A stretch of 64,000 nucleotides of DNA from Tsukamurella conjunctivitidis (GTDB taxonomy: Bacteria > Actinomycetota > Actinomycetes > Mycobacteriales > Mycobacteriaceae). The DNA lies in the NCBI RefSeq assembly GCF_007858475.1, contig NZ_VIGX01000022.1, positions 1 through 64,000 on the forward strand, given 5' to 3'. Shown piece after piece: positions 8,143 to 25,571 of the stretch. Each line of letters starts with the position of its first letter. The first letter of the stretch is position 1. The notes beneath the pieces are model-generated. The model made no database searches, had not been told where the DNA came from, and saw nothing but the letters and a program-made list of their open reading frames with translations. The position numbers and the translations under genes were made by a program.

Positions 8143-11100
8143 TGAGTAGGCAGGTCTTCGAGCCCCCGCTCCACCCGAAGAAGGAGCCCCGGGTCGTCAA
8201 GAAGGAGGTGGAGGTCCGCACGCCGGACACCATCGACGAGGTCGACCCGCCCGGCAAGTGGCGCACCGTGATGATGCCCGTCATCATGGTGGTCGCCGTG
8301 CTCGGCATGCTGTTCATGATGATCCGCATGAACCGGGGCTTCAACCCGGTCATGCTGCTCATGCCGATGATGCTGCTGTTCGGCATGTTCGCCTACATGG
8401 GCGGCGGGCCCGGCGGCAGCGGCAGCAAGTCGAAGGCCCAGCTGCTGCACGACCGCAAGCAGGCCAGCCGATCGATCGGCACCTCGCGTGAGAAGGCGCT
8501 CTCCCGCGGCCGCAACTACTTCGACGCCCTCGCTCACGCGTACCCCGATCCGTCGGTCGTGGCTTCTCTCATCGGCACCGAGCGGATGTGGGAGGTCGGC
8601 GGCGGCGACTCCGAGCGCAAGGCCCGGTTCACCGCGGCGCGGTACGGCCGTGGCCGCATCGTGCCGAAGGCCAAGCTGCTCACGCCCGAGGCGCCCGACG
8701 GGGAGTTCCTCGATCCCGTGCAGTGGACCGAGACGGTGAAGTTCCTGCACACCCACTCGACCATCGCGGACATGCCGCTGGCCTTCACCCTGCGCAACGT
8801 CCCCGTGCTGGGCGTGGGGGGCGATCCCGAGCGGGCCGCGGGCATGGTGCGCGCGATGCTCAATCACCTCGCCATCACGCACGGCCCGGACCGGCTGCGC
8901 TTCGCGGTCGTCGCGGACACCCCCGACGGGGGCCGGTGGGAGTATCTGAAATGGCTTCCGCAGACGCAGCATCCGTCGCTCATCGACGCGCTGGGTTCGC
9001 GGCGGATGATCTACGGCAACTGGACGGACTTCCTCGACGAACTCGCCGGGAGCGAGGAGCAGCCGACCGCCGAGGCCGACCGCATCGTCGACTACTCCCG
9101 CCCGTTCACCACCGAGTCCGAGGTCACCGGCCGCACCCGGCACACCGTCGTGATCGTGGAATCCGCTGAGCGCGCACGGATGACCGACCAGGCGATCGCC
9201 TCGCTCGCCGACGTCACCTGGATCCTGATGTCGCCGCCCGACGGCGTGATCGACTCCTTCCCGCACGCGGTCCTGCTCGACGTGGCCCCCACGGGCATCG
9301 TGACCCGGTGGGACTCGGACCTGCCGCTGGAGGCGCCCAAGGAGATCGCGCGGGCCGATCAGCTCGACCTCATCGACGCGCACAGCCACGCGCGCAAGCT
9401 CGCCCGGTGGGAGCTCGAGACCACCGCCTCGCTGCTGTCGAAGGAGCGCCAGGACACCGGCCGGGACTGGGCCAACCTGGTGCAGGTCGACGACCCCGGC
9501 GCCATCGACGTCGTCGACTTCTGGCAGCGCATCAAGCGATTCGACGATCCGCGCCGCCTCAACTTCCCGATCGGCTTCGGGCCCGACGGCACGCGGATCT
9601 TCCTCAACATGCGCGAGGCCAGCCAGGGCGGCACCGGGCCGCACGGCGAGATGATCGGCACCTCGGGATCCGGCAAGTCGGAGTTCCTGCGCTGTCTCGT
9701 CCTCGACGCCTGCCTGTTCCACTCGCCGACGATGCTCAACCTGCTGCTCGTGGACTTCAAGGGCGGCGCGACCTATCAGGGGATGGAGGACATCCCGCAC
9801 GTCGCCGCGGTGGTCACCAATCTCGAGAAGTCCGAGAGCATGGTCGACCGCATGATGGAGGTCATCACCGGTGAGCTCAAGCGGCGCCAGCAGCTCTTCG
9901 ACAGTGCCGCAGCGCGATACCCGTCGTTCAACATCATCGGACTGACCGAGTACGAGAAGGCCCGCGAGTCGGGGCACTGCCCCGACCTCGAGCCCATGCC
10001 CGCGCTGCTGGTGCTCATCGACGAGTACACCGAGCTGCTCGAGGCGAAGCCCGAGTTCGTCAACATCTTCAGCCAGATCGGCCGCGTCGGCCGGTCCGTG
10101 GGCGTGCACCTGCTGCTCGCCTCGCAGAACGCGGAGATGGCGCGATCGCGGGGCCTTGAATCGAACATCCACTACCACATCGCTCTTCGTACCGGCACCG
10201 CCGGAGACTCACGTGCCGTGATCGGTGTCCCCGACGCCAAGAACCTGCCCGGCAAGCCCGGAAACGGCCTCATCAAGACGCTCCACGAGGATGAGTTGAT
10301 CCGGTTCTACGCGGGTTTCACGGGCAAGCCCTACTTCGCCCCCGAGGCGGCCCCCGAGCCCGTCGTCCGCGAGATCGTGCAGCCCACCGCCGACGACCTC
10401 TCCTCGCGGGCCTTCACCGCACGGCGGGTGGACATCCCTGACCTCGAGGCCGAGATCGTCGAGGACGACGAGATCGTGCGCACCGAGGAGGAGATCCTCG
10501 CCGCGCCCACCGTCTTCACCGTCGTCAAGGAGCTCCTCACCGCGGCGCCGGCGCGCCCGGCCTACAAGCCGTGGCTTCCCGAACTCACGTCCACCACGCT
10601 GGACGTGCTGGCGCCGTCGCTCGCGGCCGGCGAGTGGGTCGCGCCCGCGGTGACCACCCCGGCCACCCTGAAGACGCCCTTCGGCGTCTTCGACGACCCC
10701 GCCAAGCACCAGCAGCCCGTGTGGGAGCTGGACCTGTCGGGCGGCCAGGGCAACGTGCTGATCTACGGTGCGCCCCAGAAGGGCAAGACCACCGCTGCGA
10801 TGACCCTGGTGACGTCCCTCGCGCTCACCCACGCGCCCGAACAGGTGCAGTTCTTCATCGTCGACTACACCGGCGGCGGTTGGATGCGACTCGAGGACCT
10901 GCCGCACGTCTCCCGGATCGCGACCCGGTCCGAGGAGGATGCGATCAACCGGATCATCTCGCAGATGTCCGACCTGATCGATCAGCGCGTCAAGCTCTTC
11001 CGCAAGTACCGCGTCAACTCGATGGCGGAGTACCGCCGCCTGCGCAGCGATCCGGGCGCGGAGGTCATCACCGAGGACGCCTTCGGCGACGTCTTCATCG

Positions 11101-12362
11101 TGATCGACGGCTTCGACGCGGCGGTCACCGAGGGCGGCGTCTTCGAGGACAAGGTGCCGGTGCTCGAGGCGCTCGCCTCGGGCGCCCTGAACTACGGCAT
11201 CCACTTCGTGATCACGACCGCGCGCAACACCGTGCTCCGCGGCCTCGCGAGTCACATGCACACGATCATCGAGGGCCGCGTGTCCACCGCCAGTTACGAC
11301 ATGTCCGTCGTGAACTCGCAGCGGAACAAGGCGGTGCCCGACAAGGCGGGTCACGTCATCACCACGGACCGGGAACTGCTGGCCCTGGTCTCGCTGCCCC
11401 GCGCCGACGGGGACTCCTCGCCCGAGACCCTCAGCGACGGCATCGAGGAGGTCGTGGAGCGGATCCGCCGCGCCAACACCTCGGGCGCCGAGGCGCCGAA
11501 GCTCCTGGCGCTGCCCGAGGTGGTCTTGCAGGACGACCTGTTCTCGGTGCTCCCCGCGGAGGCCGGCGCGCGCGAGCGCGTGCGCCTGCCGTTCGGCGTC
11601 CGCGAGACCGACGCCGGCCTCGCCGTCGCGGACTTCGGCCGCGAGGCGCACATGTACGTGGTCGGCGAGAGCGGCTCCGGCCGGTCCGCCTTCGTGCACA
11701 CGCTCATCGAGGCGATCAGCCGCCGGTACCCGACCATCGACGACGGTGCCATCGCGCTCCTCGACCCGAAGCGCGTGCACCGCGGCGCGTTCGCCCCCAA
11801 CCCGAAGAACCTCGGGCTGCACGGCTCCGACCTCTACGACTTCCTGCGCCGCTGGCAGGACAAGCTCGTGGACTGGATGGGCGAGGGGGAGACCGACCCG
11901 GAGAAGGTGACCTACCGCCGGGTGCCCGATGCCGCCGACAGCGCCGCGCTCGCGCGCCGCGACTGGTGGACGGGGCCGGAGGTCTTCCTCATCATCGACG
12001 ACTACGACGCCGTGGTCGCCCGCGGGGACCGCACCAACCCCATCACCCAGACCGTGAAGCTGATGAACGACGGCGTCATTCGCGGCTTCCACGTGATCGT
12101 GGTGCTCAACGATTCCGAGTACCTCTACAAGGCCAGCTCGGACCCGCTGATCCAGTACCTCGACACGCACAGCTCGATGGCGTTGGCCCTGTCCGCGGAC
12201 AAGTTCAACGTCAACATCGCAGGTGAGCGCGGGCAGCGCTTCGGTGTTCCGGGCCGCGGCCGTTTCCATCCCGGGCGCGGGGCCCCGTCGGACATCGTCC
12301 AAGTGGCCTGGAACGGCGTGCGCAGGGACGAAGCGGAGGCCGACGAGGATGTTTGGGGGTGA
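8142..12362 (+). CDS. eccC: ESX motor ATPase EccC (single chain)
   Basis: 1406 residues in one unbroken chain, as in ESX-3/-4/-5 rather than the split EccCa/EccCb of ESX-1. Two N-terminal transmembrane helices (about residues 42-90) precede three FtsK/SpoIIIE ATPase modules. Module 1 has GTSGSGKS (Lys512) with LLLVDFKGG and VLIDEY. Module 2 has GAPQKGKT (Lys882). Module 3 has GESGSGRS, where the P-loop Lys is Arg1181. EccC is the motor that recognises the C-terminal signal of Esx substrates and drives export. The GTG start overlaps the eccB stop. Confidence 0.95.
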   Translation: MSRQVFEPPLHPKKEPRVVKKEVEVRTPDTIDEVDPPGKWRTVMMPVIMVVAVLGMLFMMIRMNRGFNPVMLLMPMMLLFGMFAYMGGGPGGSGSKSKAQLLHDRKQASRSIGTSREKALSRGRNYFDALAHAYPDPSVVASLIGTERMWEVGGGDSERKARFTAARYGRGRIVPKAKLLTPEAPDGEFLDPVQWTETVKFLHTHSTIADMPLAFTLRNVPVLGVGGDPERAAGMVRAMLNHLAITHGPDRLRFAVVADTPDGGRWEYLKWLPQTQHPSLIDALGSRRMIYGNWTDFLDELAGSEEQPTAEADRIVDYSRPFTTESEVTGRTRHTVVIVESAERARMTDQAIASLADVTWILMSPPDGVIDSFPHAVLLDVAPTGIVTRWDSDLPLEAPKEIARADQLDLIDAHSHARKLARWELETTASLLSKERQDTGRDWANLVQVDDPGAIDVVDFWQRIKRFDDPRRLNFPIGFGPDGTRIFLNMREASQGGTGPHGEMIGTSGSGKSEFLRCLVLDACLFHSPTMLNLLLVDFKGGATYQGMEDIPHVAAVVTNLEKSESMVDRMMEVITGELKRRQQLFDSAAARYPSFNIIGLTEYEKARESGHCPDLEPMPALLVLIDEYTELLEAKPEFVNIFSQIGRVGRSVGVHLLLASQNAEMARSRGLESNIHYHIALRTGTAGDSRAVIGVPDAKNLPGKPGNGLIKTLHEDELIRFYAGFTGKPYFAPEAAPEPVVREIVQPTADDLSSRAFTARRVDIPDLEAEIVEDDEIVRTEEEILAAPTVFTVVKELLTAAPARPAYKPWLPELTSTTLDVLAPSLAAGEWVAPAVTTPATLKTPFGVFDDPAKHQQPVWELDLSGGQGNVLIYGAPQKGKTTAAMTLVTSLALTHAPEQVQFFIVDYTGGGWMRLEDLPHVSRIATRSEEDAINRIISQMSDLIDQRVKLFRKYRVNSMAEYRRLRSDPGAEVITEDAFGDVFIVIDGFDAAVTEGGVFEDKVPVLEALASGALNYGIHFVITTARNTVLRGLASHMHTIIEGRVSTASYDMSVVNSQRNKAVPDKAGHVITTDRELLALVSLPRADGDSSPETLSDGIEEVVERIRRANTSGAEAPKLLALPEVVLQDDLFSVLPAEAGARERVRLPFGVRETDAGLAVADFGREAHMYVVGESGSGRSAFVHTLIEAISRRYPTIDDGAIALLDPKRVHRGAFAPNPKNLGLHGSDLYDFLRRWQDKLVDWMGEGETDPEKVTYRRVPDAADSAALARRDWWTGPEVFLIIDDYDAVVARGDRTNPITQTVKLMNDGVIRGFHVIVVLNDSEYLYKASSDPLIQYLDTHSSMALALSADKFNVNIAGERGQRFGVPGRGRFHPGRGAPSDIVQVAWNGVRRDEAEADEDVWG

Positions 12363-12745: not shown

Positions 12746-14122
12746 GTGACCTTCCCAGCGCTTCCCCCCGAGGTCAACGTGGGGCGCCTCATGTCGGGAG
12801 CGGGCCCCGCGCCGGCGACCGCTGCGGCCGCGGCGTGGGCCTCGGTCGCAGCCTCCGTCAGCGCGCGGTCCGTCTTCCTGCAGTCGCTGCTGCCGCGTCT
12901 CGCCGCGTCGTGGCAGGCGCCGGAGACGGCGCTGATGACGCGCAACGTCGCGATGTACCTCGCGCACAACGAGGCGCTGCGCACGCAGGCGCTGCTCGCC
13001 TCCACGCGGCACACCAAGCAGGCGGCCGACTACTCGGCGGCGCTGGCCGGGATGGCGCAGTTGCCCGAGATCGCGCTGAACCACGTCACGCACGCGGTCC
13101 TGGAGGCCACCAACTTCCTGGGCGTCAACACCGGCGCGATCGCCGCGAACGAGGCGCAGTACGCCGCGATGTGGGCGCAGAACGCCACGATGATGCTGAC
13201 CTATCTCGCGAACTCCACCGCGAACATGACCTTCGAGCCCTTCATCCCGCCGAAGCCCATGGCCACCTCCATCGGCGTGCCGATCCCCGCGGCCGCCGCG
13301 GGAGCGGCATCGGTCGGCGACGCCGTGGTCACCAAGATGACCCTCGCCGCGCAGGGCGCGCAGGCCACCGCGAGCATGCTCTGGATGCGCACCGCGGGTG
13401 GCGTGCTCTCGACCACGAAGCTCGGGCAGACCGTCGTCGTGCAGGCCCAGCGCCTCGAGCAGGCCGCCTCCAACGCGGCGACCGCGGGGTCCCAGTCGCG
13501 CGAGAACAGCCTCGCGCGTCCCACCACCGGTCAGCAGCTGGGCCAGAGTCTGGTGCAGCAGCTCGGCGGTGCCGGCGGTGTGGCCGCCGGCGTCGGCGGC
13601 GGCGTGGTGGGTGCCGCGGTGTCGGGCGGCGGTCAGGCGCTGCAGACCGGCGTGAGCGCGGGCACGGCGACGACCGGCGGCGGCGTGGTCTACCAGCCGA
13701 TGAGCGCGCTGCTCGCCAACGTGCACTCCGAGAACCGCACCAGCACCGTCGGCTACTTCGGCGCCCGCCCCGGCTCGCCCACGCTCGAGCGGATGTCCCG
13801 CGGCGAGCAGGCGCGGCCGACCGCCTCCGCGCTCCGCGCCGAGCCCGGCACCGCGGCGCTGCCCCAGGTGGCCGCCCCCGCCAACTGGGCGACCGACGGC
13901 CTCACCGTCGCGCCGCCGCCCCCGCCGGTCCCGCGCGTGGCGGCCGAGCCGCTGCGTCCGGTCCTCCCCACCGGCTCCAGCGCGCCGGTCGCGCGGTCGA
14001 AGGGCAAGCAGCGCGAGCGCATCGTCGTCCCCGACACCGCCGCGATCCCCGTCTACCAGGACTCGGCGCCCGAGTACGAGTCCGTTCCCGTCGACGTCCC
14101 GTCGAGTGGGGAGGGACGCTGA
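12746..14122 (+). CDS. PPE-family ESX substrate
   Basis: 458 residues. The N-terminus carries PALPPEVN with the Pro-Pro-Glu signature, and the roughly 170-residue PPE domain ends with the typical block FLGVNTGAIAANEAQYAAMW. The remainder is Ala/Gly/Val-rich with a Gly-rich stretch (about 270-320) and a Pro-rich tail; no PPE-SVP or MPTR repeats were seen. PPE proteins pair with PE and are held by EspG for export through the ESX channel. This is the only PPE gene in the window. Confidence 0.9.
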   Translation: MTFPALPPEVNVGRLMSGAGPAPATAAAAAWASVAASVSARSVFLQSLLPRLAASWQAPETALMTRNVAMYLAHNEALRTQALLASTRHTKQAADYSAALAGMAQLPEIALNHVTHAVLEATNFLGVNTGAIAANEAQYAAMWAQNATMMLTYLANSTANMTFEPFIPPKPMATSIGVPIPAAAAGAASVGDAVVTKMTLAAQGAQATASMLWMRTAGGVLSTTKLGQTVVVQAQRLEQAASNAATAGSQSRENSLARPTTGQQLGQSLVQQLGGAGGVAAGVGGGVVGAAVSGGGQALQTGVSAGTATTGGGVVYQPMSALLANVHSENRTSTVGYFGARPGSPTLERMSRGEQARPTASALRAEPGTAALPQVAAPANWATDGLTVAPPPPPVPRVAAEPLRPVLPTGSSAPVARSKGKQRERIVVPDTAAIPVYQDSAPEYESVPVDVPSSGEGR

Positions 14123-14880: not shown

Positions 14881-15747
14881 GTGGCCGTGCTGCGCGAGGA
14901 ACCGGCGAAGCTGTCCGCCTTCGCCGCCGACATCGACGAGTTGTTGCTGCTCATGCGGCTCGCGGACGTCACTGAGCTGGCACCGGTGGTGCTGGCGGTG
15001 CATCCCAACGTCTACCGGCCCGACGACCAGCTGGTGGTGGACCTCGCGGTCCTGCCGGGGCTGGTCGACGCGGGGCTCGTGGATGCCGACGGGGCCGTCG
15101 ATCCGCAGGTGGGGCACTGGCTGCGCGCGCTCCAGGCGCCCGCCGCCGAGGTCGCGATCCGCGTCTTCGACGGTGACGCGGTGCTCCGGGGCGCGGTCGT
15201 GCGCCGTGACGAGCTGGTGGTCGTCGCCTTCCGCAACGACGATCAGTTCACCGTGCAGGGCTTCCGCACCGATCGCGAGGATTTCGAATCGACCGTGGTC
15301 GAACCCCTGTGGCGGGTGCTGGGGGCGCGTGATCCCGCGGACTTCGAATCGTTGACCGTCGAGGCCGGGGAGCTGGCGGAGATCGTCGCGAGCTTCGACC
15401 CGCAGGTCGCGGGACCCCGCGGCGAGCGCGAGGTGCGCAGTCGGCTGCGCGAGCACGATCTGTCGCAGCAGACCGTCGACGTCCTCCTCGACGCGGCGCG
15501 CTACTCGGGCCGGCGGGCCGAGATCGTTTATCACCGTACGGATTCCAGTGGTGTGCGGACGCGGGCCGGGTGGGCCGTCGGAGTGATGGACACGGCCGCC
15601 GGCCGGGTGCTGTCGACCACGGAGCGCGGCTCGCAGGGCGTGCTCGACGTGACGCTGAGCCCCGGTACCCGGAGACGGTTCTCCGAGGGGATCGCCGCGC
15701 TCGTCGAGCGCGGGGGTTGCACCGGATGGTTCGACACAGCAAACTGA
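14881..15747 (+). CDS. espG: EspG-type PE/PPE chaperone
   Basis: 288 residues from GTG, with GAAGAGGAGG just upstream. Family size is 270-300. The alternating beta-strand/helix pattern (PDDQLVVDLAVLP, LVVVAFRNDD, CTGWFDT at the end) and its place after the esx genes match the EspG family (ESX-1 EspG1, ESX-3 EspG3). EspG is a cytosolic chaperone that binds the tip of the cognate PPE protein and keeps PE-PPE dimers soluble until export. A single EspG with a single PE-PPE pair suggests a dedicated match. Confidence 0.88.
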   Translation: MAVLREEPAKLSAFAADIDELLLLMRLADVTELAPVVLAVHPNVYRPDDQLVVDLAVLPGLVDAGLVDADGAVDPQVGHWLRALQAPAAEVAIRVFDGDAVLRGAVVRRDELVVVAFRNDDQFTVQGFRTDREDFESTVVEPLWRVLGARDPADFESLTVEAGELAEIVASFDPQVAGPRGEREVRSRLREHDLSQQTVDVLLDAARYSGRRAEIVYHRTDSSGVRTRAGWAVGVMDTAAGRVLSTTERGSQGVLDVTLSPGTRRRFSEGIAALVERGGCTGWFDTAN

Positions 15748-15824: not shown

Positions 15825-17612
15825 ATGAGCGACGCAGCTACGAACGTTCGGGTGCCTTTCGTGCCGCAAAACAGTCACGACGAGAACGACTCGTCGGCGA
15901 TCCTGCCCTCGACCGATTCCGCCGTGCCGGTGGTCCGCCCGTCCGTTCCCACGGGTGCGCCGCTGTCCGAGCCCGTGAGCGGCGAGTGGGAGGAGCCGGA
16001 CCTGCCGGAGGTCGACGACCTCGACGGCTCCGCGGCGGTGCCGACCGCTCCCGCCGTCGCGCCCGTGATCGTGGCCGCCGACGAGCGCCCCACCGCCGAG
16101 CAGCCGGCCGTGGTCGACGACAGGGCCGACGCCGCGAAGACCGGTGCGCCGAAGAACGGCGCGCCGGCGAGCGACGCTCCGAAGGCGGACGCCCCGAAGG
16201 CCGACGCTCCGAAGAGCGAGGCGCCGAAGGCGGACGCCACCAACGGGACGCCGAAGGCCGACACCGCGAAGGCGGAGGGCCCCGCGGCGGAGGCCGCGAA
16301 GGCCGATGCCGCGAAGCCCGCGGCACCGTCGGCCCCGCAGTCGGCCAAGCCCGTCCCCGCGCCCGTGCCGCAGCTGCAGCAGCAGTGGCAGGGTGGACAG
16401 AACGGCTTCGTCCCCGCTGCCGCGCAGCACGCGCAGGTCCCGAACGGCCAGGTCCAGGCCCCGTTCCAGGGCACCCCGCAGGCCGGCCAGTTCCAGTCCC
16501 CGCAGGCCTCCGGCCAGCTCCAGCGCCCGAGCGCTCCGCAGCCCTTCGGGCAGGCACCCGCGCAGGGCGCTCCGGCGCCGATGGTGCCGCAGCACCAGCA
16601 GGCCCCGATGCGCCCCATGGGCGAGTCGCTCTCGGCGCCCATGTCGACCGCCTCGTCGTCCTTCAACCAGCAGATCCGCTTCTCGGACGCCGCCGTGCGC
16701 GTCTCCGGCTGGCGCGCCTGGCTGCGCAAGATGGGCCTCGACGTGGGGCCCAGCGCGAACGACCAGGAGCACGCCGAGCTCGTGCACCGCATCCGCGTCC
16801 CGAAGCACAAGTTCCATGTGACCAGCGTCTTCGCGGACAACGCCGGCGGCACCCTGCTCGTGGGCGTGCTCGGCCAGATCCTCGAGCGCACCCGCGCGGA
16901 CAACGTGGTCGCGCTCGACCTCGATCCCGACGGCGGCGACCTGGACCAGGTGACCGCGTGGCACCAGGGCGGGTCGACGGCCCGCACCTTGATCCAGCAG
17001 AGCGATCTCTCGGACCGCAACCAGGTGGACAAGCACCTCGCGGTGACGGCGACCAACCTGCACGTGCTGCCCACGCCGTGGCGCTTCAACGGCCGCGACG
17101 TGACGGACTACGACGACGTGCTCGACCTGTACTCGATCTTCCGCCCGCACTACAGCCTCGCGCTGGTCGACGCCGGCCGCGGCCTGCAGACCCAGACGGG
17201 CACCGGCGTGCTCGAGATCTCATCGGCGCTGATCCTGCCCGCCTCGGCCACCACCCGCGGCGTGCGCAAGGTGGCGGCGACCATCGACTGGCTGCGCCAC
17301 CACGGCTGGCACGGCCTGCTAGCGAACACCATCGTCGTCATCAACCACACGAAGCGCCGGGGCAGCGTCTCCGTCGAGCAGTTCGACGAGCTCTTCCGCG
17401 CCGGACAGAAGCTGCGCGTGCACGAGATCCCGTACGACCCGCACCTGGACTCGGATCAGCCGATCGACATCGACCAGCTCCGCAAGCGCACGATCCGTGC
17501 CTTCGAGGAGCTGGCCGCGGACCTGGCGGACGGCTTCAACTCGGGCTACGAGCCCCCGGCCGCCCAGAAGCTCGCCGAGCTGCAGCAGGTGCGCACGACA
17601 GAGGGACGCTGA
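15825..17612 (+). CDS. EspI-like MinD/ParA-fold protein, degenerate P-loop
   Basis: 595 residues from ATG with GAGAGG upstream. Residues 1-280 are disordered: Pro/Ala/Lys-rich with repeated APKADAPK units, then Gln-rich. Residues about 285-590 are a MinD/ParA-like domain, with DLDPDGGDLDQ (Walker A-prime-like) and IVVINHTKRR typical of the fold. Where family members have KGGVGKT, this protein reads DNAGGTLL (residues 338-345), without a P-loop lysine. EspI (Rv3876) lies between esxA and eccD in ESX-1, where its ATP-binding site has been linked to shutdown of secretion at low ATP. Here it occupies the same slot in an ESX-3-ordered locus and probably cannot bind ATP the same way. Confidence 0.8.
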   Translation: MSDAATNVRVPFVPQNSHDENDSSAILPSTDSAVPVVRPSVPTGAPLSEPVSGEWEEPDLPEVDDLDGSAAVPTAPAVAPVIVAADERPTAEQPAVVDDRADAAKTGAPKNGAPASDAPKADAPKADAPKSEAPKADATNGTPKADTAKAEGPAAEAAKADAAKPAAPSAPQSAKPVPAPVPQLQQQWQGGQNGFVPAAAQHAQVPNGQVQAPFQGTPQAGQFQSPQASGQLQRPSAPQPFGQAPAQGAPAPMVPQHQQAPMRPMGESLSAPMSTASSSFNQQIRFSDAAVRVSGWRAWLRKMGLDVGPSANDQEHAELVHRIRVPKHKFHVTSVFADNAGGTLLVGVLGQILERTRADNVVALDLDPDGGDLDQVTAWHQGGSTARTLIQQSDLSDRNQVDKHLAVTATNLHVLPTPWRFNGRDVTDYDDVLDLYSIFRPHYSLALVDAGRGLQTQTGTGVLEISSALILPASATTRGVRKVAATIDWLRHHGWHGLLANTIVVINHTKRRGSVSVEQFDELFRAGQKLRVHEIPYDPHLDSDQPIDIDQLRKRTIRAFEELAADLADGFNSGYEPPAAQKLAELQQVRTTEGR

Positions 17613-17618
17613 CGCCAG

Positions 17619-19187
17619 ATGGTCTTCCCGATCACCCCGGAGCCCGCCGGAACCGAGAACGCGGGCCCCGGGCGATCCGCCGTCCCCGAGCAGGTGCGCG
17701 TCCTGGTCGAGGTCGGCGAGAACTCGGTCGAGCGGAGCCTGCTCGCCCGCCGGCGGCTGTCGGTCGTGATGGATTCCGTGATTCCCGGGCTGGAGCAGAT
17801 CTTCCCGGACCACGACTTCGCGACGACCGGCGCCTGGACCTTCGCCCGGGAGGGCGGAACGCCGCTCGCGCGCGACAAGTCCCTCGCCGATGCGGGCGTG
17901 CTCGACGGTGACCGGCTGATCCTCGCCGAGACCTTCTCGACCCAGACCTTCCGGCCGCTCATCGAGAGCACCGCCGACGCGATCCAGGAGTTCTGCCGCC
18001 AGCGCTTCCGCCGGTTCGAGTCGGCGACGGCACGGGCGCTGGGGCTCCTCGCGCTGGTGCTCGGCGCGACCGTCTTCTCCGCGCTGGTGCTGATCGCCTG
18101 GTTCGAGCACTCCAGTGTGCTGTGGTGGTTCCCGGTGGCGGCGCTGGCCTCGATCGCCGTGGTGCTCGCCGCGCTGTCCGCGGACCGGCAGTACCGCGCG
18201 CCGCAGGTGGCGTACGCGCTGCAACTCGCGGCGGTCCCGGTGCTGTTCTCCGCCGGGTTCGTGCTCATCCCCCCGGACGGCGGGGTCGACGGTGCCTTCA
18301 CCGCCGCGAACGTCCTCACGGGGTCGACCTTCGCGCTCATCGGCGTGGTGGTGCTCGGCCGCGCCAGCCGCCTGGGCGCGACGGTGCTCGCCGCGCTCGG
18401 CCTCACCGCCGCCGCGGTCGTCGTCGCGAGCGCCCTGTTCGCGTACACGCCGCTCGGCCGGCCCGCGATCCCCGCCATCGGCGTGATCGCGGGGCTGCTG
18501 CTGGCGAACTGGGCGCAGGGCTGGGCACTCATGCTCGCCGGTGTCCGGCCGGACCCGCTCCCACCGCCCGGTGAGGACATCGACCGCAGCGAGCTCGACG
18601 CGGCGTACCACGTCGACACCTTCGACGACGAGAGCACGACCGAGCTGGCGCGCGCGCAGGAGAACACCGGACTCGAGCGCAAGGCCCGCACCGCGGCCAA
18701 GCTGCTCACCGGCTTCTACGTCGCGATCGCCGGGATCCTGGTGGTCTCCGCGCTCACCGTGATCGTGCCGGACAGCCACTACTTCTGGGGTGAGGTGGCG
18801 ATCGCGGTCCTGACCTCCGTGATCTGCGTGCTGCGCGGCCGCACCCTCGATGACCGGGTGCACGCCACCGTCTTCTTCGTGGCCGGCTTCGTCATCGCCG
18901 CGGGCCTCGCGGTGGTCCTCGTCGAGGCGCTCGACTCGGACCTCGGCCGGCTCGTCGTGATCGTGCTCAGTGCCGCCGTTCTGGCGGGCTTCGGCGCGGC
19001 CGGCCTGCTGCTCGCGGACCGCGTCGCCACCGACGCCGGCGGCCACGGCCGCCCGCTGTCGGCGCGGCTCCTCGGCCGCATCGAGGCCGGCGAGAAGCTC
19101 GCGATCTTCGCGGTCGTCCTGCTCGCGCTGTGGTGCACCCGCCTGTTCGCCGCCATGCGCGAACTCGACCTGTCGTTCCTGAAGTAG
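17619..19187 (+). CDS. eccD: ESX membrane channel protein EccD
   Basis: 522 residues. Residues about 22-110 form the ubiquitin-like cytosolic domain (QVRVLVEVGENSVERSLL) and the rest contains about eleven transmembrane helices, the family pattern. EccD forms the bulk of the inner-membrane channel of the EccBCDE complex, two copies per protomer in solved mycobacterial structures. It starts six bases after the EspI-like gene and is followed by mycP after 14 bases. Confidence 0.94.
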   Translation: MVFPITPEPAGTENAGPGRSAVPEQVRVLVEVGENSVERSLLARRRLSVVMDSVIPGLEQIFPDHDFATTGAWTFAREGGTPLARDKSLADAGVLDGDRLILAETFSTQTFRPLIESTADAIQEFCRQRFRRFESATARALGLLALVLGATVFSALVLIAWFEHSSVLWWFPVAALASIAVVLAALSADRQYRAPQVAYALQLAAVPVLFSAGFVLIPPDGGVDGAFTAANVLTGSTFALIGVVVLGRASRLGATVLAALGLTAAAVVVASALFAYTPLGRPAIPAIGVIAGLLLANWAQGWALMLAGVRPDPLPPPGEDIDRSELDAAYHVDTFDDESTTELARAQENTGLERKARTAAKLLTGFYVAIAGILVVSALTVIVPDSHYFWGEVAIAVLTSVICVLRGRTLDDRVHATVFFVAGFVIAAGLAVVLVEALDSDLGRLVVIVLSAAVLAGFGAAGLLLADRVATDAGGHGRPLSARLLGRIEAGEKLAIFAVVLLALWCTRLFAAMRELDLSFLK

Positions 19188-19201
19188 AGGGGCTGGGGTC
19201 C

Positions 19202-20623
19202 GTGCTCCGTTTCCCGAGGGCGGCCGCGGTCGCGGCCGTCTCCGTCACCGTCGTCGTGGCCGGTTCCTGGGCCCCGGCCCTCTCCGGCGCCGTCGTGCCG
19301 CCGGTCGCCGACATCGGCGGCGCGCCGCCCGACACCGACGGCCCGGAACGGCCGCTGCGCAACAACAACCCGCGGTGCGTCGAGCCCGGCGTCCTGCCGA
19401 ACTCGAACCTGGCCGCGGCCCCCGCGCCGGCGAACACCCTGCGGATCGACGAGGCGCACCGGTTCTCCACCGGCGCCGGCGTCACCGTCGCGGTGCTGAG
19501 CACCGGCGTGCGCCCCCAGGCCCGCCTGCGCGGCCTCGACGGTGCCGGCGACAACATGGTGGCCGCCGACCGCGGGCTCCTGGACTGCGATTCCACCGGC
19601 ACGCTGGTCGCCGGGATCGTGGGCGCGCAGCCCGCCGCGGGCGACGGCTTCGTGGGCATGGCCCCGGACGCGCGGCTCCTCTCGATCCGCGTCGACTCCG
19701 CCGGCTTCGCGCTGCAGAACAATCCCGCGGACGACGCGGACCCGAACCTCGGCCGCCCCGCGGTCAACGCCCGCAGCATCGCGCGCGCGATCGTGCGCGC
19801 CGCGAACCGCGGCGCCAAGGTGATCGTCGTGCCCGAGCCGGTGTGCATGGCCGCCGACGACCAGTTCCGCCAGCGGGAGATCGGCGGCGCCGTCGCCTAC
19901 GCGCTCCGGGCCAAGGACGCGCTGGTCGTGGTCGGCGCGGGCGCGACGGACCGCCAGGGCGGCACCGTCGGCGGAGGTGACTGCAAGGCCAACCCCGACC
20001 CGGACCCCGGCCAGCCCGACGATCCGCGCGGCTGGCGGCGCGTGACGACCGTCGCGACCCCGAACTGGTTCGACGGGCAGGTGCTCTCGGTCGGCGCCAC
20101 CACGGCCGAGGGCACGCCGCTGCCCGGATCGCTGAACGGTCCCTGGCTCGACGTCTCGGCGCCCGGCGCGGGCATCGTCTCGCTGAGCTCCCGCGGGGGT
20201 GACGGCGTGATCAACGGCGCCCCCTTCGAGCGGAACCTCGTGCCCTTCGCCGGACCCGAGTTCGCGGCGGCCTACGCGGCGGGCGCGGCGGCGCTGGTGC
20301 GCTCGCGGTACCCGCAGCTCTCGGCGAATCAGGCGGCGGCGCGGCTCGTCGCCACGGCGCACGCCCCCGGCCGGGGCACGGACAACAAGGTGGGGCGCGG
20401 GCTCATCGACCCGGTGGCGGCCCTGACCGCGAAGGTCCCCGACATCGATGCGGACATCGACCCGCAGTCGGTGGAGAAGCTGCTCGTCCCGCCGCCCCCG
20501 CCCGACCCCGATACCCGGCCGCGGCGGACGGCGGCGATCGTGGCCGGTGCGGGTGCGGTGGCGCTCCTGGTGATCGGTGGCGTGGTCGCGCTGACGCGGC
20601 CCGGCCGGAAGCGGAGGTCGTGA
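19202..20623 (+). CDS. mycP: Mycosin-type subtilase, catalytic residues lost
   Basis: 473 residues with mycosin architecture: signal peptide, N-terminal extension, subtilase domain, Pro-rich linker and C-terminal transmembrane helix (about 443-466) with basic tail. The canonical sites are all replaced: VAVLSTG has Ser100 for the catalytic Asp; DCDSTGTLVAG has Thr132 for His; GPEFAAAYAAG has Glu353 for the nucleophile Ser; and GAGATD has Ala248 for the oxyanion Asn. The surrounding blocks are well kept, so the fold is probably intact but the enzyme dead. Mycosins also stabilise the ESX complex independently of proteolysis, which this copy may retain. Stop overlaps eccE by one base (TGATG). Confidence 0.92.
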   Translation: MLRFPRAAAVAAVSVTVVVAGSWAPALSGAVVPPVADIGGAPPDTDGPERPLRNNNPRCVEPGVLPNSNLAAAPAPANTLRIDEAHRFSTGAGVTVAVLSTGVRPQARLRGLDGAGDNMVAADRGLLDCDSTGTLVAGIVGAQPAAGDGFVGMAPDARLLSIRVDSAGFALQNNPADDADPNLGRPAVNARSIARAIVRAANRGAKVIVVPEPVCMAADDQFRQREIGGAVAYALRAKDALVVVGAGATDRQGGTVGGGDCKANPDPDPGQPDDPRGWRRVTTVATPNWFDGQVLSVGATTAEGTPLPGSLNGPWLDVSAPGAGIVSLSSRGGDGVINGAPFERNLVPFAGPEFAAAYAAGAAALVRSRYPQLSANQAAARLVATAHAPGRGTDNKVGRGLIDPVAALTAKVPDIDADIDPQSVEKLLVPPPPPDPDTRPRRTAAIVAGAGAVALLVIGGVVALTRPGRKRRS

Positions 20624-22782
20624 TGACGGAGACCCTGACGACGGGCGCCCCGACGGCGGCCCCCTCGCGGCCCGAGGTCCCGACCCACCCCGAGGTCGCG
20701 CGGCTGCGCCGGCCGGTCGGCGTCCGGATCTCGTTGCGCCGTGCGCTGGTCTGGGCGGTGCTCTCGGCCAGCCTGTTCGCGCTGGTGGGCGCCACATGGC
20801 CGCTGTGGTCGGTGATCACCCTCATCGTGCTGGGCGCCCTGGTCGCGTTCGTCTCGCTGCACGGCACCGTGCTCAGCGAGAAGATCGGGGCCCGCTACCG
20901 GTACCTGCGCCGACGGCGTCGCGGGTCCGGGGGCATCCCCGGCCGCGTCATCGACGTAGACGGGGTCGGCGTGCGGCAGGGCGACGGCTTCGAACTGGTC
21001 TCGGCGATCGAGCTCACCGCGGATCCGGCCGAGACCCGGCTGCGCGAGGGCCGCGCCTTCGCGGCCGAGACCGTGCCTCTCGACCTGCTCGCGACCATGA
21101 TGACCCAGTACGGGCTCGACGTGGACATCGACATCGTCTCCGCGGGCCGGCGCGTGCCGCCCGGTCCCGCGTACCGCGCCTCGTACTCGCAGGGCGTCCG
21201 GTTCTACGCCGCGATGGCGGAGCGCTCGACCTGGCTGATCCTGCGCGTGGACACGCAGCGCAACCTCGCCGGCATCGTGCGCCGCGGGCCGTCGCGCACG
21301 GCCGGCCCCCAGGCACTCATGGCCGCGACCCGGCGGCTCGAGCAGCGCCTGCAGGAGCGGCTGATCCGCGCCCGCGTGCTGCCCGCCGACGAGCTCACCG
21401 GGCTCGGCGCGCGCATGACCTTCGGTGCGGATCCGCTCGGCGGCACCGAGAACTGGCAGAACATCGAGCACGACGCCGAATTCGCCACCACCTATCTCGT
21501 CGACCCCGTCCGCACGTCCACGGAGAAGCTCGACCGCTGGTGGGGCCTCGACAGTGACAGCACCTCGGTCGTGCTGCGGATGCGCAAGGCCGACGCCCAG
21601 GCGCCCGTGGAGATCAGCGGCCTGGTCCGTTACGACACCGCGGTGCCGATCGTGGACAACCTCGACGACGCGCTCGTCCCGATGCCGGGCCGCCAGCTGG
21701 AACTCGCGCGCGGCACCCTTCCGGGCGGCGGATCGAGCGTCGTCGACCTGCCGTCGGCGCCGCTGGAGGACCTCGGCGCCGTGGAGATCCCGGTGGGACC
21801 CGCGGGACCCGTGTGGGGCGTCTCCGGCATCGACGCCGTCGCGCTGCCGCTGTTCGACGGGTCGCCGGTCCCCGAGACGCTGGTCGTGGACTTCGCGACC
21901 GAGCTGATCCCGCTGCAGCTCGTGTTGCTGCGGTCCGTCGGTGCGGGGGCGTCCGTCGCGGTGCACACCGACCGGCCCGCCCAGTGGGCCACGCTCGCCG
22001 CGACCCTGGCCGACCCCGCCCGGTTCCGGATCGCCGACGGCCCCGGCGGCCGGCCGGCCGACATCACCGTCTTCGACGGTGCGCCGGCCGATTCCGTGCC
22101 CGAGCGCACCATGCTCACCCTGCGCGCGCCCGGCAGCGCCCCGCTGCGCGCGAACGCGGACCTCGTGATCGAGCAGGTGTCACCGTCCGCCGTGCGCGTG
22201 CGGATCGGGCACCGCGATCCCTTCGACGTGGTGCTCAACCCGACGGACGAGGAACTGCGCTACTGCGACGTGCAGGCGCAGCCCATCGCGGCCGCCGCGC
22301 CGCCGCAGCCGGCGCACCGCCAGCCGCGTCAGGTGCCCGCGCCGCCGCGGCTCGCCCCCGGCATCGCGGCGCAGCCCGTCGTGCCGCCGTCCGCGCCGCA
22401 GGTCCCGGTGCCGCCCGCCGGGAGGCACGCCCAGCCGGGCGGCCCGCGGCCCCCCGCGCCCTATCCCGCGGCGCCCGCCGCGCAGGCCCCGGGCGCCCAT
22501 ACCGCGGCGCCCGGCGTCCCGATGCAGCAGCCCGCGCCGTACCCGGCGCCCCCGCAGACGCCGCCCCCGCGGCCGCCCCGCCCGGTGCGGCCGCTGCCCC
22601 CGCCGCCCTACGAGCGGGGCAGCGGCGCCCAGCGCAAGCAGGGCGGGGACCGTTGGGTGCGACCCTCGCAGGACCAGGACGACCGCGGCCCGCGGCGCCG
22701 TCCGCTGCAGCCGCCGAGCGCGCCCCGGTGGGGCAAGACGGGCGAGCCGCCCTCGTCCGACGAGCCGCCAACCCCACGTTAA
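20623..22782 (+). CDS. eccE: ESX membrane protein EccE, extended
   Basis: 719 residues, well above the 330-460 of mycobacterial EccE. Two N-terminal transmembrane helices (about 39-82) are followed by the EccE soluble region (GVGVRQGDGFE, WWGLDSDSTSVVLRM) up to about residue 540. The final 180 residues are a Pro/Ala/Gln-rich tail with PPPRPPRPVRPLPPPP and a basic/acidic end. EccE sits on the outside of the EccBCD complex. ATG 20623 was chosen because it overlaps the mycP stop; a GTG three bases earlier is in frame. It is the last gene of the contiguous ESX operon. Confidence 0.86.
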   Translation: MTETLTTGAPTAAPSRPEVPTHPEVARLRRPVGVRISLRRALVWAVLSASLFALVGATWPLWSVITLIVLGALVAFVSLHGTVLSEKIGARYRYLRRRRRGSGGIPGRVIDVDGVGVRQGDGFELVSAIELTADPAETRLREGRAFAAETVPLDLLATMMTQYGLDVDIDIVSAGRRVPPGPAYRASYSQGVRFYAAMAERSTWLILRVDTQRNLAGIVRRGPSRTAGPQALMAATRRLEQRLQERLIRARVLPADELTGLGARMTFGADPLGGTENWQNIEHDAEFATTYLVDPVRTSTEKLDRWWGLDSDSTSVVLRMRKADAQAPVEISGLVRYDTAVPIVDNLDDALVPMPGRQLELARGTLPGGGSSVVDLPSAPLEDLGAVEIPVGPAGPVWGVSGIDAVALPLFDGSPVPETLVVDFATELIPLQLVLLRSVGAGASVAVHTDRPAQWATLAATLADPARFRIADGPGGRPADITVFDGAPADSVPERTMLTLRAPGSAPLRANADLVIEQVSPSAVRVRIGHRDPFDVVLNPTDEELRYCDVQAQPIAAAAPPQPAHRQPRQVPAPPRLAPGIAAQPVVPPSAPQVPVPPAGRHAQPGGPRPPAPYPAAPAAQAPGAHTAAPGVPMQQPAPYPAPPQTPPPRPPRPVRPLPPPPYERGSGAQRKQGGDRWVRPSQDQDDRGPRRRPLQPPSAPRWGKTGEPPSSDEPPTPR

Positions 22783-22842: not shown

Positions 22843-24924
22843 GTGTTCGTGGCGTCGGAACCCGGTGAGTCGATCGCTGGCTACGTGATCGAGTCGATCC
22901 TCGGTACCGGAGGCATGGGCACGGTGTACCGCGTGCGGCACCGCACGCTGCCCCGGTCCGTCGCGCTCAAGGTGCTGCAGACCCAGCTCTCCGCCGATCC
23001 GTCGGTGCGGGCGCGGTTCGACCGCGAGGCCGACCTGATCGCCGGGCTCAAGCACCCGCACATCGTCGACGTCTACGACCGCGGCGAATCCGATGGGCAT
23101 CTGTGGATCGCCATGGAGCTCGTGGAGGGCGGCAACCTCGCCACGACGGTGCAGCGCGAGGGCCCGTTCAGCCTGGACCGCACGGTCGCCGTGATCGAGC
23201 AGGTGGCGGACGCGCTCGACTACGCGCACCAGCACGGCATCCTCCACCGCGACGTCAAGCCCGCCAACTTCCTCGTCGACCGTGGCCGCCGCGGCGAACA
23301 GGTCAAACTCGCCGACTTCGGGATCGGCGCCGCCCAGACCGAGGTCGGTCAGAACACGCAGGCGGGCACGGTTGTCGGCACCCTGGCCTACACCGCGCCC
23401 GAGGCGCTGCTCGGGCACCCGGTGGACCACCGTGCCGACGTCTACTCGCTGGCCTGCGCCACCGTCGTGCTGCTCACGGGCGCGCCGCCCTTCACGACCA
23501 CGGTCTCGGGTCAGCTGATGCTGGCGCACATCAGCCAGAACCCGCCCAGCGTGCGGCTCAAGCGGCCGGACCTGTCGCCGGAGATCGACCACGTGCTCGG
23601 CCGCGCGATGGCGAAGAACCCCGCGGACCGGTTCTCCACCGCCGGCGAGTTCGCCGATGCCCTGGCCGCGGCCGCGCGCCGCATGTCGGGTGCCTCGGGC
23701 ATGGCCCCGCCGGCGGCGCCGCAGGGCGTCAACTGGCAGGGCACGCCGTCGAATCCCGCGCTCGCGACCGGCTACAACCAACCCGGCCCGCCGGTGGCCG
23801 GCGGGCAGGGACTGCCGCCCGGCGCGCCGACGGGGCTGCTGGGCCCCGTCGGCCCGGCCGGCGCCCGCGGACCGGGCGGACCCGGCGGACCGATGGGGCC
23901 GAGCTCGCCGTCGATGCCGGTGCTCGGCGGGGGCGGCGCGCCGGCGACGAACCGGAAGAAGCTGTTGATCGGCGGGGCCGCCGCTCTGGTCGTGATCCTG
24001 GCGGCGGTGTTGACCATCGTGGTCGTCCGCGGCGGTGGCGACGACGACGGCCGGCCCGGCCTCGACGCCTGGAGCGCCCGCACCGTCACCGACGTCAACG
24101 GCTCGACCGAACTCGCGGAGCGGCCGCAGCGGATCGTCGCGCTCGGCCCGGGGGACGCGGAGCTCGTCTCGGCGCTCGGCTTCGAGGTGGTCGCGGGGGC
24201 GAACGGCCCGAAGTCGGAGCTGCCCTCGTGGGTGTCCGCCTTCTCGGGCGTGCCGACCGCGGGTACGTCGACCAACCCGGACAGGTCGGTGATCGAGAAG
24301 GCGAACCCGGACCTGATCCTGGATACCGATCCGGACGCGGCCGACAAGGTCAAGGAGCTCAAGTCCCTGGCCGGCGGCCGCGCGATCGCGGTCTCCGGCG
24401 AGGGGAAGTCGGGGTGGACGTGGCAGCAGCAGCTCGCGTTCATCGCGGAGGCCCTCGGGGCGAAGGACCGCGCCGAGGCCGTGAAGAAGACCTACGAGGG
24501 CCGCATCACGGCGCTGCGTTCCGCGCACCCGGAGTTCTCGGGGAAGAAGCTCGACGTCGTGCACTACGACGGCAAGGCGACGAAGCTGGCCGGCAGCTCG
24601 GCGAACGCGCTGCAGCTGATGGGCCAGCTCGGCTTCGCGACGCAGACCCCCGTCGACGGGTCCGGTTCGTGGCTTCCGCTGGCGTCCGGCGACATCTACA
24701 AGGCGGTCAACTCGAGCACGGTGGACCGGACGGTCGTGGCGCGTACCGATCCGGCGGGCGGCAACGGCGGCTTCGACGGCGTCCCCTCGTCGTTGACCTA
24801 CGGCGTGCCGATCATCATCCTGGACAAGACGAACGGCGTGGACGCACTCCTGTACGGTGGGCCGCTCGCCATCGACACGATCGAGCAGTCGGTGGTGCCC
24901 GCGCTGGTGAAGGGAATCAAGTGA
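22843..24924 (+). CDS. Ser/Thr kinase fused to FecB-like binding domain
   Basis: 693 residues. Residues 1-275 are a PknB-type kinase with intact glycine loop (GTGGMGTVYR), Lys43, HRDVKPAN (Asp137), DFG (Asp158) and APEA. A Gly/Pro-rich juxtamembrane stretch leads to one transmembrane helix (about 374-395). The extracytoplasmic part (404-693) looks like the periplasmic-binding fold of siderophore/haem receptors (FecB/TroA type): QRIVALGPGDAELVSALG, then SVIEKANPDLILDT, a long helix, and GVPIIILD near the end. So a cytosolic kinase appears wired to an iron-chelate-binding sensor, directly after an ESX-3-type locus. GTG 22843 and GTG 22849 both have ribosome sites at good spacing. The kinase call is firm; the sensor family is from motif recognition; the ligand is inference. 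Confidence 0.85.
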   Translation: MFVASEPGESIAGYVIESILGTGGMGTVYRVRHRTLPRSVALKVLQTQLSADPSVRARFDREADLIAGLKHPHIVDVYDRGESDGHLWIAMELVEGGNLATTVQREGPFSLDRTVAVIEQVADALDYAHQHGILHRDVKPANFLVDRGRRGEQVKLADFGIGAAQTEVGQNTQAGTVVGTLAYTAPEALLGHPVDHRADVYSLACATVVLLTGAPPFTTTVSGQLMLAHISQNPPSVRLKRPDLSPEIDHVLGRAMAKNPADRFSTAGEFADALAAAARRMSGASGMAPPAAPQGVNWQGTPSNPALATGYNQPGPPVAGGQGLPPGAPTGLLGPVGPAGARGPGGPGGPMGPSSPSMPVLGGGGAPATNRKKLLIGGAAALVVILAAVLTIVVVRGGGDDDGRPGLDAWSARTVTDVNGSTELAERPQRIVALGPGDAELVSALGFEVVAGANGPKSELPSWVSAFSGVPTAGTSTNPDRSVIEKANPDLILDTDPDAADKVKELKSLAGGRAIAVSGEGKSGWTWQQQLAFIAEALGAKDRAEAVKKTYEGRITALRSAHPEFSGKKLDVVHYDGKATKLAGSSANALQLMGQLGFATQTPVDGSGSWLPLASGDIYKAVNSSTVDRTVVARTDPAGGNGGFDGVPSSLTYGVPIIILDKTNGVDALLYGGPLAIDTIEQSVVPALVKGIK

Positions 24925-25571
24925 TGGCGGAGCAGACGCTGACCGCGGCGGACCTCGAGCGGTACGCCGCGGCCCTCGCCGAGGGCAAGAAGCCGCTGGT
25001 CTACCTCGTCGAGGGCGTGCCGAGCCTGGGGCTGGACGCCGGTGCGTCCGCCCGGGTCGTCGAGGTCGACGGTGCCGTCGTCACGGTCAAGCCGACGGGT
25101 GTCGACGACCAGTTGCCTTACGACGCACGAGAACTGCGCGCCACCAAGCAGCCGAAGCCGGTGAAGCGGGCGGCGCAGCCGGCCGGGGCGGCGAAGGCGG
25201 CCGGGGCGGCGAAGGCGGCGGGTGCGGGGAAGCAGGCGGGCGCGGGGAAGCCGGCGGCGAAGGCCAGGGCGGCCCGGTCCGTCGCGATCACCGTGTACGT
25301 GGGCGCCGACAACACCGCCTCGCTCAAGGTGACTCGGAACGCGCAGAAGCCCGCCGGGGCGCAGGAGATCCCGCTGCCGGCCCTGCACAAGGCGCTCGCC
25401 GGACTCGGCGACAAGGAGGCGCAGGCCGCGGTCGACGAGGTGCTCTCCGCCGCCCGCGACGCCGCCGCGGATCGCGTGGCGGCGCTGCAGGCGGAGCTCG
25501 CCGCCGCCAAGAAGTCGCTCGCGACCCTCGATCGCGCCAAGCGGGGAAGCGGCTCGGCCCGCGCCCGCTAG
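24924..25571 (+). CDS. Hypothetical protein with Ala/Lys linker
   Basis: 215 residues; the ATG overlaps the kinase stop (TGATG), implying co-translation. Residues 1-75 look like a small folded domain (LVYLVEGVPSLGLDAGASARVV). Residues about 80-120 are an Ala/Gly/Lys linker built from AKAAG units. The rest has a strand-rich piece (SVAITVYVGADNTASLKV) and ends in a coiled-coil-like helix. I do not recognise the family. Coupling to the kinase makes it a candidate substrate, partner or DNA/envelope-associated factor, but no Thr-rich phosphorylation cluster stands out. Confidence 0.7.
   Translation: MAEQTLTAADLERYAAALAEGKKPLVYLVEGVPSLGLDAGASARVVEVDGAVVTVKPTGVDDQLPYDARELRATKQPKPVKRAAQPAGAAKAAGAAKAAGAGKQAGAGKPAAKARAARSVAITVYVGADNTASLKVTRNAQKPAGAQEIPLPALHKALAGLGDKEAQAAVDEVLSAARDAAADRVAALQAELAAAKKSLATLDRAKRGSGSARAR

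Follow-up and report, generated by a model that had tools for sequence, protein, structure and literature searches.

The closest described relative of the gene studied here is PknQ (Mup011, gene mup011), a Ser/Thr protein kinase (STPK) encoded on the Mycobacterium ulcerans plasmid pMUM001, for which Arora et al. (2014) reported an extracellular 'FepB-like iron transporter module', a Mn2+-dependent activity inhibited by Fe3+ and hemin, and two substrates, MupFHA and MupDivIVA; in the sections of that paper available to us the authors call for further study, and sensing by the outer domain is not demonstrated there (PMC4238996). Other regulators bearing a substrate-binding protein (SBP) domain appear in a table of a siderophore gene cluster survey (PMC13293324), with the pairs Peripla_BP_2 plus HTH_18 and SBP_bac_3 plus Pkinase; they share with our gene the fusion of an SBP fold to a regulator, and the second pair follows the same principle with a different class of SBP, but in the available part of the survey Pkinase is not listed alongside Peripla_BP_2. 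Literature searches for a kinase/SBP fusion under wording other than PknQ gave nothing useful; most subscription papers lay outside their reach, and other descriptions may exist. Here we describe a receptor kinase gene of Tsukamurella conjunctivitidis, situated behind an ESX locus in the 64,000-nucleotide stretch formed by positions 1 to 64,000 of contig NZ_VIGX01000022.1, hereafter the window. A first-pass annotation, made from the letters alone, had presented the gene as a new signalling design, with no STPK of such a fold described before it. Since PknQ had already been published, this central claim of novelty falls, and the Tsukamurella kinase is already known in kind.

The receptor kinase with an outer domain of the iron-chelate-binding type is real and conserved in Tsukamurella. 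As in PknQ, a kinase domain is followed by one membrane helix and an outer Peripla_BP_2/FepB-like domain (Table 1). The Pkinase match (176.6 bits) has all its motifs intact, namely Lys43, the HRD Asp137, the DFG Asp158 and APEA at 185; by hydropathy alone, one hydrophobic stretch follows NRKK (19-residue windows starting at 371-383); and Peripla_BP_2 scores 30.4 bits against a cut-off of 27.5. The reading frame, kinase motifs and single helix given in the first-pass annotation were thus correct, and the FecB/TroA-type outer fold that it proposed was borne out, more narrowly, as a FecB/FepB-type class III SBP. The alignment profile of the outer domain retrieves siderophore-binding proteins from the PDB (SirA at E 5e-30), and the predicted structure has the two lobes and the long joining helix of siderophore and haem SBPs, so that fold and sequence profile are shared with SirA, YfiY, PiaA, FepB, M. 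tuberculosis FecB and MhuP. Class III siderophore-binding proteins are free or lipid-anchored, unlike the tethered domain of Tsukamurella. Compared with five other Tsukamurella, dN/dS is 0.06-0.14 in the kinase domain and 0.13-0.42 in the sensor domain, which places both under purifying selection, with the linker looser. Given the profile matches, the predicted fold and these dN/dS values, the fusion is more than a chance observation. The closest named record, from T. tyrosinosolvens (NZ_LR134454), is 88% identical across the whole gene; this record is labelled 'plasmid 12', and positions 118000-158000, the part that we read, hold pntB, Ku and many metabolic genes and look like a chromosome fragment.

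In class III importers of the BtuF/BtuCD kind, two acidic residues, one per lobe, dock the binding protein onto its permease. Our alignment set 48 sensors against 11 free-standing SBPs, of which 3 came from other Tsukamurella and 8 from among the 13 further SBPs of this genome. The first docking site is acidic in all 11 free-standing proteins (10 Glu, 1 Asp), in contrast to none of the 16 Tsukamurella sensors and 2 of the 32 mycobacterial ones; at the second site, in a lobe whose alignment is less certain than that of the first, 10 of the 11 SBPs have Glu (one gap), while acidic residues occur in 0 of 16 Tsukamurella and 4 of 32 mycobacterial sensors (two gaps). The loss of both residues implies that the outer domain no longer delivers cargo. 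That it might still feed a FecCD permease, with the kinase reporting on transport, would suit a fold class that is that of FecCD-type importers; yet, with both docking positions lost in the alignment, the domain tethered to a helix, and no FecCD permease among the neighbouring window reading frames scanned or in the T. tyrosinosolvens annotation (where some genes are hypothetical), we regard this as hardly credible.

Sixteen sensor columns, among them D40, R236 and D238 (sensor numbering), are invariant across 45 sensors, and W127 and W129 are nearly so. Taken with the docking-residue loss, the purifying selection and the single sensor clade described below, the invariant columns agree with a domain that has left transport and persists as a sensor. 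The reading that we favour, as probable though some way from secure, is that of a PknQ-type receptor kinase with an iron-chelate-type outer domain that has lost import and works as a sensor. As computation shows, it comprises an N-terminal Hanks kinase on the cytosolic side, a Pro/Gly-rich linker, one membrane helix and, outside, a class III SBP domain that is related to iron-chelate-binding proteins and has lost the two FecCD-docking acidic residues. From this arrangement we infer the class of ligand, the route of the signal and the output: an iron chelate, or a similarly shaped molecule, may bind in the cleft, and cleft closure or dimerisation across the membrane would alter kinase autophosphorylation inside. 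The probable output is the 213-residue partner encoded directly behind the kinase and, to judge from the PknQ substrates, proteins of the FHA or DivIVA type; for the ESX machinery, adjacency in most Tsukamurella is the sole reason to count it among the possible targets.

The sensor was found in 16 of 16 Tsukamurella genomes and, across the family, in 23 of 301 genomes from 2 of 31 genera; in the second genus, Mycobacterium, 28 of 148 genomes have it. An order-wide sample (298 genomes, 76 genera) returned 12 matches at 348.9 bits or more, 3 from Tsukamurella and 9 from Mycobacterium, the next scoring 157.6, and the two long-frame matches that we read below this gap had no kinase. Sensor and kinase share one frame at 46 of 48 loci, the exceptions being a short mycobacterial frame and the gene of Tsukamurella sp. 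PLM1 (L049), which is split over two frames, perhaps by decay or by sequencing error. Plasmid records with at least 80% of the sensor number 24 (1 Tsukamurella, 22 mycobacterial and 1 Planococcus SBP) and include pMUM001 and the M. marinum plasmid pRAW; in the stretch of pMUM001 that we read, the sole annotated STPK (MUL_RS00060), at 660 residues like PknQ, comes up as a relative. The Tsukamurella and PknQ sensors are 30% identical over 97% of the domain, and in a tree of 25 of the 48 sensors the Tsukamurella and mycobacterial sequences form one clade (support 98/97). The Tsukamurella member differs from PknQ in being chromosomal in the complete genomes seen, in mostly following eccE and not a DUF7373 gene, and in having the 213-residue partner. 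A single relative of the sensor, as a sensor match only, came from Nocardioides (L055), and a Tsukamurella-type locus lies on contig CAJCHX010000306.1 (L054), whose title, Acidobacteriaceae bacterium BOG_194, is probably wrong.

Several points weigh against the sensor interpretation. To our knowledge no ligand has been identified for any member of the family. The predicted fold matches siderophore binders and the haem-binding MhuP equally well, so it does not pick the ligand, and the permease-feeding role of the 11 comparison SBPs is an assumption. In the best trees the kinase domains of Tsukamurella and Mycobacterium make two groups without a clear sister relationship, so a single fusion event is not demonstrated; one clade of fused kinases was not rejected in the smaller kinase tree (p of the approximately unbiased test, p-AU, 0.197). 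The larger tree held 45 of the 48 fused kinases (three without a clean domain were dropped) and 26 others, the miscut L105 among them, and the smaller one 25 of these 45 and 21 of the 26, without L105 and four long-branch rows. Mycobacterial ESX-3 is regulated by iron through an IdeR-type box, and no such box occurs in the window at up to 3 mismatches from the consensus, looser matches being no better than those in shuffled sequence; elsewhere in the genome there are three IdeR-type sites, one of them about 250 bp before an SBP match on contig C300. Finally, according to the part of the PknQ paper available, hemin inhibits both the full-length protein and its isolated kinase domain, and Fe3+ also inhibits the latter (PMC4238996), so that these effects cannot be credited to the sensor.

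The genes on either side of the kinase differ between the two genera. In Tsukamurella the 213-residue partner follows the kinase, with -4 to +25 bases between the two genes, in every one of the 11 loci examined, those of 10 named Tsukamurella and of the BOG_194 contig; its predicted model is of low confidence (pTM 0.35). In Mycobacterium the gene immediately before the kinase, on the same strand, encodes a DUF7373 protein in 20 of 23 loci, the exceptions being L081, L087 (1.6 kb of sequence) and L099, with an FHA gene instead. As a control we examined 1.5-kb flanks, a reach somewhat shorter than in the 23-locus count, for 30 of 45 kinases from three genomes: all three mycobacterial fused kinases had DUF7373 in their flanks, as against one of 26 other kinases (17 mycobacterial, 9 from this genome). 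That one, the mycobacterial L132, lies beside the fused, PknQ-like mycobacterial kinases in the trees, and its outer sequence, as read and not scanned, is different, which suggests that sensors are swapped on mycobacterial plasmids. The PknQ-like kinases of pRAW (M. marinum E11; protein scanned) and pS2b (M. avium) show the same fusion as ours, but the gene just before them is a DUF7373 gene, and many such mycobacterial loci also have FHA genes close by.

This pairing bears on the possibility that the outer domain binds no small molecule and is a protein-docking surface, for instance for a DUF7373 lipoprotein in mycobacteria or a wall protein in Tsukamurella, the kinase then reading protein contact or the state of the envelope. 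In its favour stands the contrast between 20 of 23 mycobacterial loci and one of the 26 other kinases (1 of 17 counting mycobacteria only), and the DUF7373 protein of pRAW starts with a lipobox-like LAGC; an SBP contact of this sort also has a parallel in the solved complex of M. tuberculosis FecB with Rv3035 (9p3f). In Tsukamurella sp. PLM1, too, the upstream frame reads as a ROK regulator and a DUF7373-like domain together. Yet the invariant columns, D40, R236 and D238 included, fit a kept pocket, and neither of two mycobacterial DUF7373 queries matched anything in the window or in the other Tsukamurella loci searched; on balance we think protein docking unlikely, if still the most serious competitor to a small-molecule sensor. 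The literature searched, which leaves out most subscription papers, held no paper on DUF7373.

The placement of the kinase directly after an ESX locus, as given in the first-pass annotation, was confirmed, with eccB, eccC, a PPE gene, espG, eccD, mycP and eccE all recognised. Conservation of the fusion next to ESX, a check that it proposed, proved partial. Of the 16 Tsukamurella genomes, 13 have eccE as the closest ESX gene upstream (in 10 on the same contig at the spacing of the window, 3.1-3.5 kb between match starts, and in 2 as an eccE end immediately preceding the kinase where the contig breaks off). In Mycobacterium no eccE match stood beside the kinase in the 20 loci fetched, some of them on short contigs. 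Five of these 20 had eccC or eccD, and in a sixth (L093) the EspI-like query alone gave a match. Mycobacterial kinase and eccE do lie on one contig at 20 of 32 loci; the computed chance values being mostly unremarkable, we make no claim of physical ESX linkage in that genus. ESX is also present on at least 9 of the 22 mycobacterial plasmids that have the full sensor: five appear among the best 60 of 112 EccC plasmid records, the contigs matching two more include eccE, and for pRAW and pS2b the available parts of PMC4791881 and PMC12803027 report ESX, its genes lying elsewhere on the plasmid and none being annotated in the stretches around the kinase that we read.

It could be argued from this proximity that the kinase serves chiefly to turn the adjacent ESX machine on or off, the more so as only 60 bp separate it from eccE in the window and ESX accompanies the full sensor on the plasmids just mentioned. 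Against this, ESX is absent from three Tsukamurella loci (sp. PLM1, sp. 8F and the BOG_194 contig) that retain both the kinase and the partner gene after it; the gene upstream there codes for a ROK regulator, and in PLM1 a DUF7373-like stretch intervenes. In T. asaccharolytica (L044) eccE and the kinase stand about 1.7 kb apart, the sequence between them (470-2140) having no match in the window and being perhaps an insertion; no ESX gene is annotated in the 22 kb of pMUM001 that we read; and in the two plasmid ESX loci read, from M. avium and Nocardia, no kinase is annotated after eccE. We consider a dedicated ESX switch improbable. In T. tyrosinosolvens a ROK gene like that of these three loci is on the far side of the ESX block, and Tsukamurella sp. 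8F has an EccE match above cut-off on another contig, away from the kinase (G010:C16:43087-44121). The ESX block thus comes or goes beside a constant kinase, by insertion or by loss, both being possible, and the adjacency is a local arrangement.

As to the kind of ESX system, the label 'ESX-3-type' of the first-pass annotation was not supported. Against solved structures EccB scores 221.7 bits with EccB3 and 217.8 with EccB5, a narrow lead, MycP is closest to MycP1 and EccE matches only EccE5; the EccC comparison was uninformative, the EccC3 chains in structures being short. Among the matches listed, the closest plasmid EccC outside Tsukamurella is that of M. avium p1-JPH1 (41.5% identical), Nocardia plasmids reaching 35%, and the two loci read have the same gene order, including a MinD/ParA-type gene between espG and eccD. 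With no supporting mark in EccB, EccC, MycP or EccE and no IdeR-type box, an ESX-3 identity is unsupported though not excluded. A broader scenario would have a mobile module common to Tsukamurella and the mycobacterial ESX plasmids, whose kinase would read a siderophore-like envelope molecule, presented or gated in mycobacteria by the DUF7373 lipoprotein, and so time plasmid or ESX functions such as conjugation and secretion to the iron state or to neighbouring cells; we rate it as distinctly doubtful. Elsewhere in the window, two tandem 690-residue genes (36080-38152 and 38321-40393) encode proteins 91% identical to each other, and their T. tyrosinosolvens counterpart by position is annotated as a CocE/NonD family hydrolase.

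Table 1. Features of the kinase locus and of the ESX genes before it (window positions)
Feature	Position	Strand	Basis or remark
PknQ-type receptor Ser/Thr kinase gene, 693 aa, GTG start	22843..24924	+	Open reading frame (ORF), Pfam, motif reading
Hanks-type kinase domain (Pkinase, residues 14-266)	22882..23640	+	Pfam and motifs
Single membrane helix, about residues 374-395, basic residues kinase-side	23962..24027	+	Hydropathy scan
Outer sensor domain, class III SBP fold, residues 399-693	24037..24921	+	Pfam, profile, predicted structure
Peripla_BP_2 match inside outer domain, residues 431-620	24133-24702	+	Pfam
Ser482, column of the first permease-docking acidic residue of free-standing SBPs	24286..24288	+	Docking-site alignment
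Lys620, column of the second docking Glu	24700..24702	+	Docking-site alignment, less sure in this lobe
Gene of the 213-aa partner, sharing one base with the kinase stop	24924..25562	+	Pfam matches below cut-off only
eccB	6451..8142	+	TIGR03919
eccC	8022..12362	+	TIGR03924 and TIGR03925; true start probably nearer the eccB stop
PPE gene	12746..14122	+	PF00823
espG	14881..15747	+	PF14011
EspI-like gene between espG and eccD	15825..17612	+	Named by position; frame itself not scanned
eccD	17619..19187	+	TIGR03920
mycP	19130..20623	+	TIGR03921
eccE, 60 bp upstream of the kinase	20620..22782	+	TIGR03923

Considering these findings, PknQ, so far described as a feature of an M. ulcerans plasmid, is one member of a family found in two genera, with members on mycobacterial plasmids such as pRAW. 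What is added to the published picture is the evidence for a dedicated sensor, the pairing with DUF7373, which gives that domain a functional lead, and the spread across Tsukamurella and Mycobacterium. The loss of the docking residues suggests an iron-binding fold that was withdrawn from import and retained as a sensor.
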